In this document: one piece after another, positions 17,331 to 61,299 of the stretch
How the letters are laid out: every line of letters begins with the position of its first letter
How positions within the stretch are numbered: position 1 is the first letter of the stretch
Source: Thiobacillus denitrificans ATCC 25259
GTDB lineage: Bacteria; Pseudomonadota; Gammaproteobacteria; Burkholderiales; Thiobacillaceae
DNA length: 64,000 bases
Assembly (NCBI RefSeq): GCF_000012745.1
Contig: NC_007404.1
Coordinates: 2,108,001 to 2,172,000 of the forward strand
Direction of reading: 5' to 3'
The notes under the pieces: model-generated
What the model saw: only the letters and a program-made list of their open reading frames with translations
Told to the model about the DNA's origin: nothing
Database searches by the model: none
Made by a program: the position numbers and the translations under genes

Positions 17331-17627
17331 ATGACGCCGTCCTCCGCCGTCGCAAGCTGTCTGCTCCTCGCCCTGTCCGGCTTCGCGGTCGCTGCCGACC
17401 GTCATACGCTGACGATCGCGGCGACCTGCATGTCCTGCCACGGCCCGGACGGACGAAGCCTCGGCGAGATCCCGCGACTGGATGGCCTGAGCAGGACCGA
17501 GTTCGTCACGGCCCTACGCGATTTCCGGTCAGGCGCGCGCCGCGCGACGATCATGCAGCGCCAGGCGAGCGGCTACACCGACGCCGAAATCGACGCCCTC
17601 GGCGACTACTTCGCCACCCTGAAATAG
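17331..17627 (+). CDS. fccA: Monohaem cytochrome c, probable cytochrome subunit of sulfide dehydrogenase
   Basis: A 98-aa periplasmic cytochrome c with a signal peptide (cleavage near AVA, residue 21) and one haem site CMSCH near residue 34. A candidate distal Met lies in ATIMQRQ. It is 12 bases upstream of the flavoprotein gene fccB, so it most likely accepts electrons from sulfide oxidation at the flavin. Characterised FccA proteins of purple sulfur bacteria can be diheme; the single-haem short form here is seen in several thiobacilli. The assignment rests mainly on context. Confidence 0.82.
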   Translation: MTPSSAVASCLLLALSGFAVAADRHTLTIAATCMSCHGPDGRSLGEIPRLDGLSRTEFVTALRDFRSGARRATIMQRQASGYTDAEIDALGDYFATLK

Positions 17628-17639
17628 GCTTGCGCGTTC

Positions 17640-18899
17640 ATGCACCTCGACCGGCGTGACTTTCTCAAGCTTTCCGCGGCGACAGCCCTCGCGGCCCTGC
17701 CGGGCTGCGCGTCGCTGTCCGGCACCGCGCGCCCTCGGGTGGTCGTGGTCGGCGCCGGCTTCGGGGGCGCGACCTGCGCCAAATACCTGCGCAGGTGGGG
17801 CCCCGCGCTCGACGTGACCTTGATCGAGCCGAACGAACGCTTCGTTTCCTGTCCGATCTCGAACTGGGTGCTCGGCGGCCTGCGCAGCATGGACGACATC
17901 ACCCACGGCTACGGCGGCCTCGCCCGCCACGGCATCACGCTGATCCGGGATAGCGTCGTCGCGATCGACCCCGACACACGCACGCTGCGCACCGCTCAGG
18001 GCCTGCAAATCGGCTACGAGCGGCTCGTGCTCGCGCCCGGCGTGGAACTTCTCACCGATTCGGTGCGCGGCTTCGCCGACGCCGAGGCGGCCGGCAGGGT
18101 CGTTCACGCGTGGAAGGCCGGCGCGCAGACCGCGCTGCTACGGCGCCAGCTCGAAGCCATGCCGGACGGTGGGACCTTCATCGTGTCGATTCCGGCGGCG
18201 CCCTACCGCTGCCCGCCCGGCCCCTACGAGCGTGCATGCCTCGTCGCCCATTACTTCAAGCAGCGCAAACCGCGCTCGAAGATCATCGTTCTCGACGCCA
18301 ATCCCGATATCGTCTCGAAGAAACCGCTCTTCACCGACGCCTGGAACACGCTCTATCCGGGGATGATCGACTACCGCCCCAACAGCCCGGCGCTCGTCGT
18401 CGACGCGGCGAAGATGACGGTCTCGACCGACTTCGAGGACGTGCGCGGCGACGTGCTCAACATCGTGCCGCGGCAGCGCGCTGCGGCCGTCTGCGACCTC
18501 GTCGGCGCGCGCAACGACGGCAACAAGACGTGGTGCACGGTCGACTTCGCAACGTTCGAGTCGACCGCGGCACCCGGCGTCCACATCATCGGCGACTCGA
18601 TGGCGTCGCCGCTGCCGCGCTCCGGCCACATGGCGACCAACCAGGCCAAGGTCTGCGCCGGCGCGATCGTCGACCTGCTCGCCGACCGCGCGCCCGACCC
18701 CGCGCCGGTCATCGCCAACACGTGTTATTCCGCAACGTCCGACAGCACGGCGGGTTATGTCGCGCACGTCTACCGTCTCGTTCCCGGCAAGGGTTACGTC
18801 GCCGCGCCCGAGGGCGGCGCAACCACGACAGGCGACGCGCGGAACTTCCGCTACGCCGCCTCGTGGGCGAAGAACATCTGGGCCGAAATGCTGAGTTGA
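17640..18899 (+). CDS. fccB: Flavocytochrome c sulfide dehydrogenase, flavoprotein subunit
   Basis: Oxidises sulfide in the periplasm and passes electrons to cytochrome c. The 419-aa protein starts with a twin-arginine signal (RRDFLKLS, then an AATALAALPGCA core). It then shows the FAD dinucleotide fold VVVVGAGFGGATCAKYL and the FVSCPISN segment, where the Cys matches the covalent 8-alpha-cysteinyl-FAD position. The cysteines in PYRCPPGPYE and ANTCYSA fit the redox-active disulfide pair. A second FAD-binding region is VHIIGDSMASPLPRSGHMA. It pairs with the upstream cytochrome gene. Confidence 0.95.
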   Translation: MHLDRRDFLKLSAATALAALPGCASLSGTARPRVVVVGAGFGGATCAKYLRRWGPALDVTLIEPNERFVSCPISNWVLGGLRSMDDITHGYGGLARHGITLIRDSVVAIDPDTRTLRTAQGLQIGYERLVLAPGVELLTDSVRGFADAEAAGRVVHAWKAGAQTALLRRQLEAMPDGGTFIVSIPAAPYRCPPGPYERACLVAHYFKQRKPRSKIIVLDANPDIVSKKPLFTDAWNTLYPGMIDYRPNSPALVVDAAKMTVSTDFEDVRGDVLNIVPRQRAAAVCDLVGARNDGNKTWCTVDFATFESTAAPGVHIIGDSMASPLPRSGHMATNQAKVCAGAIVDLLADRAPDPAPVIANTCYSATSDSTAGYVAHVYRLVPGKGYVAAPEGGATTTGDARNFRYAASWAKNIWAEMLS

Positions 18900-23784: not shown

Positions 23785-23813
23785 TTGCCACGTCAGGATA
23801 AGTTAATTATGAT
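23785..23813 (+). promoter_or_regulatory. Sigma-70 promoter candidate upstream of the ccoI leader
   Basis: TTGCCA, a 17-base spacer, then TATGAT, close to consensus and in a locally AT-rich stretch. It would start a transcript near 23820, about 345 bases before the ccoI start codon. Confidence 0.6.
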
Positions 23814-23881
23814 ATGCGCATCTTCAATGCTGCTATCTGGCGGAAGCTTGAACGGATGGCGAGGCCCCGACGGCTCGCTTT

Positions 23882-24205
23882 TATAATCGCCCGTTTAAGC
23901 GTGAGGAAACGCCTGCGAGGCGAACCTCACCCGGCAACCTGCGGCAGCGAAGAATGGCGATAGCAAATGCAACGTGTAAACCCACCCCAGTGACGCCAGG
24001 GTCAAAAGCCTGGGCGTCCGGTTCGCCGGCCGGGACATCTACCCCCTGCCCCAGGGTTCCGGCAACCGATTTCAGCGCTGCAAACGAGTTGTGCTCGACG
24101 CCAGCGACCGGTCCGACCTCTCTCCCGGGCCTGTCGTGCTCCAGCGTCCTCCTGCGGGGCGATTCGTGAGTTCTTCTCCTTTACTCACGGACGCCCCGGT
24201 TTTTT
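23882..24205 (+). ncRNA. Structured leader or small RNA upstream of ccoI
   Basis: The 420 bases between aat and ccoI hold no convincing gene. A perfect TATAAT at 23882-23887 opens a structured stretch: a hairpin at 23901-23930 (GTGAGG paired with CCTCAC around an inner CGCC/GGCG stem), a hairpin at about 23991-24019 (ACGCCAGG with CCTGGGCGT), a CCGG-TTCG-CCGG tetraloop just after, and a terminator at the 3' end. GTGAGG (23901) can also pair with CTCACG (24184), and CCTCAC (23925) with CGTGAG (24165), so alternative folds could open or close the terminator. It matches no riboswitch family I know by sequence. Confidence 0.55.
24156..24205 (+). terminator. Intrinsic terminator/attenuator overlapping the ccoI start
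   Basis: GGGGCG and CGTGAG pair with CTCACG and CGCCCC, giving 12 bp in two perfect blocks, followed by GG and six T residues (24200-24205). The GTG start codon of ccoI lies inside the upper stem, so the hairpin could block both elongation and translation. Confidence 0.75.
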
Positions 24206-26670
24206 CGGAGGGCTGCTTCCATTGCGGCCTCCCGGTTCCCGCCGGTGCCCGCTACCCGATCGAATTCGAAGGCCAGACCAAGGACGCGTGCTGCCGCGGC
24301 TGTCAGGCGGTCGCGCAGACGATCATCGACAGCGGCCAGAGCGCGTACTACCACCACCGCACGGCGCTGCCGGCAACCGCGCGCGAAGCCGAGGCCGAAC
24401 TCGCCCAGCTCGGGCTCTACGACCTGCCCGAAATCCAGGAAAGCTTCGTGCGGGTGGAGGCCGAAAACGTCCGCGAAGCCGCGCTGATCCTCGAAAACAT
24501 CGTCTGCGCGGCGTGCATCTGGCTCAACGAGCGCCACATTGCAGCACTGCCAGGCGTGCTCTCGGTCGAGATCAACTATGCGACGCGGCGCGCGCGCGTG
24601 CGCTGGGACAACAGCCGCATCCAGCTCTCGGCGATCCTCAAGGCCGTGTCCGACATCGGCTACATCGCCCACCCCTTCGACCCCGGCCGCTCCGACGACC
24701 TCTACAAGCGCGAACGCAACACCGCGATCAAGCGGCTCGCGATCGCCGGCCTCGGCATGATGCAGGTCATGATGTACGCCTTGCCGACCTACACGGCGAC
24801 CGACATGACCGAGGACATCCGCCTCCTGATGCGCTGGGCGAGCCTGGTCCTCACGATTCCGGTCGTCGTCTATTCGGCCTGGCCCTTCTTCATCGGCGCC
24901 TGGCGCGACCTCAAGCGCAGGGCGCTCGGCATGGACGTGCCGGTCGCGCTCGGCGTCGGCACGGCCTTCGTCGCCAGCGTCTACAGCACTTTCTCGAGCG
25001 AGGGCGAGGTCTATTACGACTCGGTCACGATGTTCATCTTCCTGCTGCTGACCGGCCGCTTCCTCGAAATGAACGCGCGCCGACGCGCCGGCGCCGCGGT
25101 CGAGGAACTGGTCAAGCTGATTCCGGCAGCGACGACGCGGCTGCCGGCCTGGCCGGCGCGTGACGAGGAGAAGGTGCCGGTGGCACGGCTCACGGTCGGC
25201 GACCACGTACTGGTCCGTCCGGGCGAGACGCTGCCGGCCGACGGCGTCGTCGTCGAGGGCGAGAGCGCCGTCAGCGAGGCGATGCTGACCGGCGAATCGC
25301 AGCCGATCGCCAAGCGGGTCGACGCGAAGGTCGTCGGCGGCAGCCTCAACGAGGCGAGCCCGCTCGTCGTGCGCGTCGAGAAGCTCGGCGCCGACACCCG
25401 GCTCGCGTCGATCGTCCGCCTGCTCGACCGCGCGCAGAGCGAGAAGCCGCGCATCGGCCAGCTCGCCGACCGCGCCGCCGGCTGGTTCGTCGGCCTCCTG
25501 CTCGTGATCACGGCGGCGGTCGGCCTCGCCTGGTACGCGATCGACCCGTCGAAGGTGCTGTGGATCGTGGTCTCGATCCTCGTCGTCACCTGCCCCTGCG
25601 CGCTGGGCCTCGCGACCCCGGCCGCGCTCACCACCGCGACCGGCCGCCTGACGCGCCTCGGCCTGCTGACGACGCGCGGCCATGCACTCGAGACGCTGGC
25701 GCGCGCCACCGACCTCGTGCTCGACAAAACCGGCACGCTGACCCACGGCAGCCTGAGCGTCGCGCGCGTGGTCACGCTGGGCCACCGCACCGAAGCCGAG
25801 GTGCGCGGGCTGGCGGCCGCGCTCGAGGCGGGCTCCGAGCATCCGATCTCGCGCGCGCTGCGTGAAGGCGCCGACGCCGGGCTGCGCGCCGACGCGATCC
25901 GCAACACGCCAGGGCGCGGCGTCGAGGGAACGGTCGCCGGGCGCGCCTACCGCCTCGGCTCTCCGCGCTTCACCGCAGAGAGCGACACGCCCCCGCGTCC
26001 GCCCGCCACCGACACGGGCGAGCACCCTAACGGGCATGAAAGCTGGGTCGCGCTGGCCGAAGACGGCGCGCTGATCGCGTGGTTCGCGCTCGCCGACACC
26101 CCGCGCGCCGACGCGGCAACCGCGCTTGCGGCCTTGCAGGCACAGGGCTTGCACCTGCATCTGGTGTCCGGCGACGCCGAGCCCGCGGTGAAAGCCCTCG
26201 CGCAGGCGCTCGGCATCACCAGCTGGCGCGCCGGCGCGCTGCCCGAAGACAAGCTCGCCTACGTCAAGGCCTTGCAGCAGCAGGGGCGCATCGTCGCCAT
26301 GGTCGGCGACGGCATCAACGACGCGCCGGTGCTGGCCGGCGCCGAAATATCGATCGCGATGGGCGAAGGCGCGGACGTCGCGCAGGCCGCGGCCGACATG
26401 GTGATGCTCGGCAGCCGGCTGACGACGCTGTCCGAAGGCGTCGCGCTCGCCCGCAAGACGCAACGCATCATTCGCGAGAATCTCGGCTGGGCGCTGGGCT
26501 ACAACCTGATCGCGATTCCCGCGGCCGCACTCGGCTACGTCACACCGTGGATCGCCGGCATCGGCATGTCGGCAAGCTCGCTGCTCGTCGTGTTGAACGC
26601 CTTGCGGCTGTCGGACTTCAAGCAGTCGACCGCGGACGCCCCGCGCGCCGCCGAAGCTGCACTACGCTGA
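24166..26670 (+). CDS. ccoI: Copper-translocating P-type ATPase for cbb3 oxidase assembly (CcoI/FixI)
   Basis: An 834-aa P1B-type ATPase that supplies copper for cbb3 cytochrome oxidase. An N-terminal Cys motif CFHCGLPVP is followed by a metal-binding domain (with IVCAACIWL), the membrane CPC motif in TCPCALGLATP, the phosphorylation site DKTGTLTHG, the SEHPISRAL motif and the hinge GDGINDAPVLAGA. I chose GTG 24166 (start of VSSSPLLTDAPVF), not the GTG at 24091, because homologues start shortly before CxxCG. The gene is followed after 1 base by ccoS. The structural oxidase genes are not in the window. Confidence 0.93.
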   Translation: MSSSPLLTDAPVFSEGCFHCGLPVPAGARYPIEFEGQTKDACCRGCQAVAQTIIDSGQSAYYHHRTALPATAREAEAELAQLGLYDLPEIQESFVRVEAENVREAALILENIVCAACIWLNERHIAALPGVLSVEINYATRRARVRWDNSRIQLSAILKAVSDIGYIAHPFDPGRSDDLYKRERNTAIKRLAIAGLGMMQVMMYALPTYTATDMTEDIRLLMRWASLVLTIPVVVYSAWPFFIGAWRDLKRRALGMDVPVALGVGTAFVASVYSTFSSEGEVYYDSVTMFIFLLLTGRFLEMNARRRAGAAVEELVKLIPAATTRLPAWPARDEEKVPVARLTVGDHVLVRPGETLPADGVVVEGESAVSEAMLTGESQPIAKRVDAKVVGGSLNEASPLVVRVEKLGADTRLASIVRLLDRAQSEKPRIGQLADRAAGWFVGLLLVITAAVGLAWYAIDPSKVLWIVVSILVVTCPCALGLATPAALTTATGRLTRLGLLTTRGHALETLARATDLVLDKTGTLTHGSLSVARVVTLGHRTEAEVRGLAAALEAGSEHPISRALREGADAGLRADAIRNTPGRGVEGTVAGRAYRLGSPRFTAESDTPPRPPATDTGEHPNGHESWVALAEDGALIAWFALADTPRADAATALAALQAQGLHLHLVSGDAEPAVKALAQALGITSWRAGALPEDKLAYVKALQQQGRIVAMVGDGINDAPVLAGAEISIAMGEGADVAQAAADMVMLGSRLTTLSEGVALARKTQRIIRENLGWALGYNLIAIPAAALGYVTPWIAGIGMSASSLLVVLNALRLSDFKQSTADAPRAAEAALR

Positions 26671-26671
26671 C

Positions 26672-26875
26672 ATGGATATCCTGATCCTGCTCATTCCGCT
26701 GAGTCTCATCCTTGTCGGCGTCATCGCCTGGGTCATGCTGTGGGCAGCAAAAAGCGGCCAGTTCGACGACCTCGAAGGCCCAGCGCACAGCGTGATCATG
26801 GACGACGACAATCCGCGTGCGCCCGCCCCGCCTCCGCCCGGCGACGGCCCCGGGCGGGACGCGCCGAAATCCTGA
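26672..26875 (+). CDS. ccoS: cbb3 oxidase maturation protein CcoS
   Basis: A 67-aa membrane protein with one N-terminal helix (MDILILLIPLSLILVGVIAW) followed by the family sequence SGQFDDLEGPAHSVIMDDD. CcoS is needed for cofactor insertion into cbb3 oxidase. The tail is Pro/Gly rich. It follows ccoI immediately, the usual arrangement in ccoGHIS clusters. Confidence 0.93.
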   Translation: MDILILLIPLSLILVGVIAWVMLWAAKSGQFDDLEGPAHSVIMDDDNPRAPAPPPPGDGPGRDAPKS

Positions 26876-56548: not shown

Positions 56549-56650
56549 CTTGCGCCCCTTCAAAGTGCGCCCTTCAAGAAGGTGCCACCCCAGGCGGTGA
56601 AGGTGTCCGCTTTTCGCCTGGCCAGGCTATGGGTGGCTGAACGGTTTCGC

Positions 56651-58983: not shown

Positions 58984-61299
<2,316 letters not shown>

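Follow-up and report, generated by a model that had tools for sequence, protein, structure and literature searches.

How can a gene be expressed when its predicted start codon lies inside a hairpin that resembles a transcription terminator? The question is raised by a locus of Thiobacillus denitrificans at which a gene for a copper P-type ATPase, taken here as ccoI, begins. The window, that is, the whole stretch of DNA that we analysed, is 64,000 nucleotides long and corresponds to positions 2108001 to 2172000 of a single-contig genome of 2,909,809 bases. aat lies upstream of the locus and is divergent; ccoI and then ccoS lie downstream. In Rhodobacter, CcoI is described as needed for cbb3 oxidase activity (PMC8475189). 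The first 15 or so codons of ccoI (24166 to 24211) are encoded by the hairpin and its tail, and a short open reading frame (ORF) ends inside the same stem. From the comparison of this locus among relatives, we consider it probable, with moderate confidence, that ccoI is preceded by an intrinsic terminator to which the translation of a leader ORF is coupled. The features of the locus, in window coordinates, are the following.

23785 to 23813, plus strand: P1, a promoter-like element found by consensus scan (TTGCCA, 17 nt, TATGAT).
23878 to 24085 (approximate limits), plus strand: ompW remnant, which aligns with the ompW of relatives.
23882 to 23887, plus strand: P2, TATAAT, the presumed -10 element of a leader-ccoI transcript, exact in 52 of 52 loci.
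23901 to 23930, plus strand: upstream hairpin of GTGAGG and CCTCAC, which forms in this sequence and is specific to the window.
23954 to 24169, plus strand: leader ORF of 71 codons plus TGA; the TGA overlaps the ccoI start inside the terminator stem.
24105 to 24136, plus strand: HP1, a covarying hairpin (core 24110 to 24131) with the loop ACCTCTCTCC at 24116 to 24125.
24145 to 24161, plus strand: possible small hairpin that would compete with the HP2 5' arm (97.1% of cells paired, compared with 96.9% in shuffles).
24156 to 24205, plus strand: HP2, an intrinsic-terminator-like hairpin with six T's, recognized by pairing, covariation and stability in 52 loci; it holds the leader stop and the ccoI start.
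24166 to 26670, plus strand: ccoI, assigned by NCBIfam copper/heavy-metal ATPase models; its predicted start is within HP2.
26672 to 26875, plus strand: ccoS (TIGR00847).

Two other regions of the window were noted in passing. Positions 17331 to 18899 hold a small cytochrome-like gene and, after it, one that resembles sulfide-quinone reductase/flavocytochrome genes and has a Tat signal; the family matches here are weak. An int-alpA RNA (RF02996) and a tRNA lie close together (56570 to 56637 and 58987 to 59070, both on the minus strand), an arrangement like the edge of an integrated element.

Of 117 genomes of the family that were searched at the DNA level, 47 matched, all in the window's genus, which is represented by 56 genomes in this set. 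When the nine genus genomes that lacked a DNA match were searched at the protein level, ccoI was found in six and the element in front of it in five (L051 to L055); three of the nine gave no ccoI match. The sixth genome, L066, has neither the element nor ompW, only a short gap between aat and ccoI. By eye, the element was absent from 10 loci of other genera (L056 to L065). These loci and L066/L067, from the one genus genome that lacks the element, were examined apart from the 52 loci to which the counts below refer. The 52 are related to one another and therefore are not independent; they exclude L024 and L026, which repeat L001 and L002, and L050, a second copy from a mixed assembly. L029 and L050 come from a single assembly with 7% contamination, in which one version of the locus has ompW and the other lacks it; this assembly probably is a mixture of two organisms. 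A covariance model of HP1-HP2, built from 41 of the 52 sequences, matched 2 of 250 genomes drawn from the order under strict filters, both in the genus, and 5 of 15 chosen genomes, again all in the genus.

The stem of HP2 is formed by a 5' arm at 24156 to 24161 and 24163 to 24170 and a 3' arm at 24184 to 24197, with one bulged base, and the six T's follow at 24200 to 24205. The earlier note had described a 12-bp stem with a six-T tail covering the ccoI GTG at 24166; the stem, the tail and the covered GTG were borne out, and the stem was found to comprise 14 pairs rather than 12. The predicted fold of positions 24150 to 24210 had an energy of -28.5 kcal/mol (z -4.26), and 1 of 200 shuffled sequences folded equally well. 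A stable hairpin with a T-rich tail (at least five T's within 12 nt 3' of the stem) was present in all 52 Thiobacillus loci, with a mean energy of -27.6 kcal/mol and a mean z of -4.85. Across the 52 sequences, 96.2% of the HP2 cells were paired and both sides had changed in 3 of the 14 pairs; with compensatory changes and stability throughout the set, the terminator stem passes the test of covariation across relatives. In the main helix of HP1, both sides had changed in six of nine pairs and 83.8% of cells were paired (52 sequences). The numbers of cells paired and of cells changed on both sides were reached by none of 500 shuffles, and the count of pairs changed on both sides (nine) was reached by 44 of 500. 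HP2 was not listed by a terminator consensus scanner, the loop limit of which is 8. Most letters of the HP1 loop ACCTCTCTCC are invariant or nearly so. The loops of HP1 (24116 to 24125) and HP2 (approximately 24171 to 24183) share a CU-rich CTCTCC, near-invariant in many loci, which resembles motifs of small RNAs that target ribosome-binding sites.

The start of ccoI is itself a prediction. In the window, the stretch from this start codon to the conserved CFHCG motif contains no further in-frame ATG, GTG or TTG. A later in-frame start codon occurs inside the hairpin in 10 of the 52 loci, and an in-frame TTG directly after the T-run, present in 8 of 52, counts against the predicted start. In L066 and in other genera, ccoI starts nearer the CFHCG motif than it does in the window. 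A start farther upstream in the ccoI frame was rejected because only 9 of 52 loci keep this frame free of stops over 64 codons or more; moreover, it is shut one codon upstream of the start in L018 and L055, which argues against an earlier start. The start codon is followed by A in all 52 loci (RTGA in 51 and TTGA in L046), so that the start codon and this A produce the TGA by which the leader frame overlaps the ccoI start. These comparisons show that one conserved hairpin, terminator-like and followed by a T-rich tail, contains both the leader stop and the predicted ccoI start. Because the predicted start belongs to the 5' arm of HP2, only transcripts that pass the terminator can include it.

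Upstream of ccoI, 51 of the 52 loci have at least 64 stop-free codons in the leader frame; the third frame reaches this length in 12 loci and the ccoI frame in the 9 given above. Starting from an ATG, it comprises 64 to 73 codons in 50 of 52 loci, the exceptions being L044 (5 codons) and L048 (36 codons). The sole locus of the 52 in which the frame is broken is L044 (1536 to 1678, minus strand), where a 17-base tandem duplication is responsible. ompW (PF03922) is intact in 21 of the loci, L053 among them, and survives as a remnant in 31, including the window genome, in which no OmpW match was obtained at an E value of 1e-8 or lower. The leader ORF overlaps the intact ompW out of frame in the 21 loci, and it is still open in the 31 in which ompW has decayed. 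When the ompW genes of 20 intact loci (L044 was left out) were recoded synonymously with the observed codon usage, the leader remained open across the overlap in 1 to 24% of trials. For 14 disjoint pairs of decayed loci (28 of 29 loci), the joint probability that substitutions placed at random would introduce no stop was 7.5e-5. Nine decayed pairs, the closest and the only ones used for the indel argument (at least 79% identity), had a single indel, of 3 nt, in the ORF versus 38 in the 200 nt before it. More divergent pairs had 55 gaps in the ORF (12 of them multiples of three) and 107 upstream (31 multiples of three); the gap costs were loose and produced many short gaps, so that these counts are not reliable. 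One antisense frame is likewise open in 22 of 29 decayed loci, which counts against the leader reading. Because of this and the relatedness of the loci, the strength of the case for the leader lies in the combination of these results. Ribosome-binding energies 5' of the ORF were weak, a further point against the leader reading, with means of -4.3 kcal/mol in 29 decayed and -0.9 kcal/mol in 18 intact loci and a value of -2.0 kcal/mol in the window (background, -3.0 kcal/mol). Together, the sequence comparisons show that the leader frame has been maintained free of stops as far as the codon that ends it, which overlaps the predicted ccoI start.

The position of ompW relative to the hairpin is similarly regular. 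The end of the intact gene is 78 to 90 bases from the ccoI start, or 98 in L044 (21 loci); in 20 of the 21, this distance takes one of five lengths, all multiples of three, and the ompW stop lies 68 to 80 nt before the HP2 stem. Within the overlap with the leader, pS of ompW was 0.409, slightly lower than the 0.435 to 0.484 found elsewhere in the gene (19 loci). In a ccoI tree, loci with intact and decayed ompW were intermixed with weak support, and recombination is possible. In the window, the TATAAT of P2 aligns with Phe-Tyr-Asn codons of OmpW, and the sequence around 23950 aligns with Lys-Asn-Gly-Tyr. That the region carries a TATAAT of its own had been pointed out before and was confirmed by its exact conservation; a clear -35 element was not seen at P2. 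The earlier note had identified neither the ompW remnant nor the open leader frame that this region contains. P1 matches the promoter consensus at 10 of 12 positions (0.2 such elements were expected from shuffles), and a P1-like sequence precedes intact ompW in relatives; to judge from these sequences, P1 is the old ompW promoter. A near-palindrome at 23808 to 23823 overlaps it, reading ATGATATGCGCATCTT in the window and AAGATNNNNNNATCTT in some relatives with intact ompW. It is retained in loci with decayed ompW and perhaps is an operator.

We propose that the leader acts as follows. RNA polymerase would start at TATAAT or at the old ompW promoter and produce the leader RNA. If no ribosome follows the polymerase, HP2 would fold, transcription would end near 24205 and the ccoI start would be buried. 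A ribosome that reaches the leader TGA would occupy the 5' arm of HP2, blocking the terminator so that transcription enters ccoI-ccoS, and on ending there it could restart at the overlapping GTG or ATG of ccoI. The act of translation would weigh more than the peptide. Because the leader stop is within the stem and the ompW stop approximately 68 to 80 bases earlier, it is leader ribosomes, not OmpW ribosomes, that would be placed to open the terminator. In species that bear ompW, its mRNA could end at HP2, as the ompW stop probably is too far from the stem to protect it, and a share would read on into ccoI. After the decay of ompW, the overlapping leader frame would have been retained because, as we propose, ccoI depends on it. 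In Escherichia coli, termination at an intrinsic terminator is reported to fall from about 90% to less than 10% when a stop codon lies 5 bp ahead of it, and to be full when the distance exceeds 27 nt (PMC4824070). Of 14 overlapping stop/start pairs tested, 13 are reported to be strictly coupled (PMC6728339). By analogy, we infer that the terminator opening and restart steps may take place in Thiobacillus. The fuller picture, in which an out-of-frame ORF has outlived the ompW that it overlapped as a ribosome conveyor that opens the ccoI terminator, with the same RNA perhaps also acting in trans, is offered tentatively, at a little under an even chance.

The invariant loop of HP1 is not accounted for by translational coupling alone. 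The locus might instead produce a trans-acting small RNA that ends at HP2, either as a fragment of the ompW 3' UTR or as a P2 transcript, the CU-rich loops of HP1 (ACCUCUCUCC) and HP2 (CUCUCC) pairing with purine-rich ribosome-binding sites of other mRNAs. A nearly invariant CU-rich loop on a covarying stem is what such an RNA might carry, and the conserved TATAAT and terminator would bound an RNA of approximately 310 nt. However, this explanation leaves both the open frame up to the ccoI start and the in-frame indels unaccounted for, and the covariance model matched only at ccoI in the genomes searched (2 of 250 and 5 of 15). We regard a small RNA as unlikely to be the explanation, although such a role may coexist with the leader function. 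A separate terminated small RNA had been raised as an alternative in the earlier note.

The location of HP2 directly after ompW in 21 loci, and the genus member L066, which with its short aat-ccoI gap lacks ompW and the element alike, would fit an ordinary ompW terminator from which ccoI is expressed by leakage, the open leader frame having no role. Against this, HP2, TATAAT and the open frame persist in the 31 loci with decayed ompW, and the patterns of indels and stops preserve the frame. We give this interpretation roughly a one-in-eight standing, that is, we think it improbable.

Coupling through a translated leader leaves the question of whether the peptide itself is selected. pN/pS was determined for 47 of the 52 loci, L044, L046, L048, L053 and L055 having been left out beforehand, and in the leader frame it was 0.89 for the 29 decayed and 1.01 for the 18 intact loci. 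The other forward frames of the decayed loci gave 0.83 (next frame) and 1.00, so the leader frame was not lower, and no selection on its amino acids is visible by pN/pS. No column of the alignment has Cys in more than 15 of the 47 leader peptides, no PP or RAPP near the C terminus common to the 47 was seen by eye, and three leader peptides, the window's included, had no Pfam match (DUF2946 included) up to an E value of 0.5. The conserved letters at the C terminus of the leader coincide with HP1 and HP2. An open frame of such uniform length would agree with a functional small protein produced from the same operon as ccoI, but the pN/pS values, on which a conserved small protein was rejected, the missing Pfam matches and the absence of a conserved Cys column make this very improbable. 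A copper leader of the DUF2946 type also was rejected, having neither the Pfam match nor the Cys column nor the RAPP/PP end. As the peptide sequence is little constrained, selection seems to act on translating the frame rather than on its product.

The least probable explanation, and one that we set aside, is that of the earlier note, in which GTGAGG and CCTCAC pair with each other or with the terminator arms as mutually exclusive folds, perhaps sensing copper or redox: these pairings exist on paper in this one sequence, but each motif occurs in 1 of 29 leaders, 19 leaders gave no consensus fold and there is no match to a riboswitch family. In the window the hairpin does form, and 5 to 6 nt each of GTGAGG (23901) and CCTCAC (23925 to 23930) can pair with a terminator arm. 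The motif counts come from 29 of the 31 loci with decayed ompW, and RNAalifold predicted no pairs for an alignment of 19 of 28 leaders; the upstream pairing thus fails the test of covariation, and the exclusive folds are not kept in relatives. Sensing of copper or redox found no support in the Cys columns (15 of 47 peptides at most) or in Rfam. That no known riboswitch was recognized agrees with the lack of any Rfam family at gathering score at the locus; known RNA families were rejected, with only three chance-level matches (E values of 2.4 to 3.9). Attenuation of ccoI at the stem is retained as the best reading, by way of a translated leader ORF in place of alternative RNA folds.

The translated leader that we favor can be set beside several known systems. 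In the pyrBI/pyrE-type attenuators of enteric bacteria, an upstream ORF is translated up to an intrinsic terminator, which is thought to allow read-through. The locus described here is similar in that an open leader frame reaches the terminator (51 of 52 loci) with its stop in the HP2 5' arm and in that a predicted intrinsic terminator (stem and T-rich tail, 52 loci) precedes the regulated gene. It differs in two overlaps: inside the stem, the stop of the leader shares bases with the start of ccoI, and the leader also runs across a second gene, ompW, in a different frame. CutF of Rhodobacter capsulatus is described as having a Sec signal peptide, CxxxC and a C-terminal proline-rich motif (PMC9973294). 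According to the same description, it is likewise a cis-acting upstream ORF, the region where a copper-related gene starts is masked by a stem-loop, and leader translation is needed, as we propose here. In contrast to CutF, the leader peptides have no conserved Cys column, the stem also is terminator-like and the ORFs overlap. CruR (DUF2946) of Bordetella pertussis, for which CXXC and RAPP motifs and Rho-dependent termination are reported (PMC9426467), controls termination as an ORF placed ahead of a copper-related gene, and its host is a betaproteobacterium; here, the terminator is intrinsic, and the leader has neither the CXXC/RAPP motifs nor a Pfam match. Because it lacks the defining motifs of CutF and CruR, the leader should not be filed with them. 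The stop/start overlap (ATGA or GTGA) and its probable coupling recall termination-reinitiation as reported for ATGA overlaps (PMC6728339), except that here the stem of an intrinsic terminator contains the overlap as well, and the ORF that comes first is a short leader. Among the matches listed from the open-access literature, we found neither a ccoI leader ORF or ompW-ccoI attenuator nor a leader ORF that overlaps another gene, ends in a terminator lying over the next start and outlasts the gene it overlapped.

If this reading is correct, what is selected at this locus would be that an ORF is translated at all, a natural case that can be seen as such because ompW, which the ORF overlaps, has decayed in 31 loci but is intact in the other 21. 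The locus also would indicate how a gene can start inside its neighbor's terminator and still be expressed, and it cautions that what appears to be a structured leader may be translated. For Thiobacillus, the leader would offer a testable way into the question of how the amount of the copper ATPase CcoI is set.
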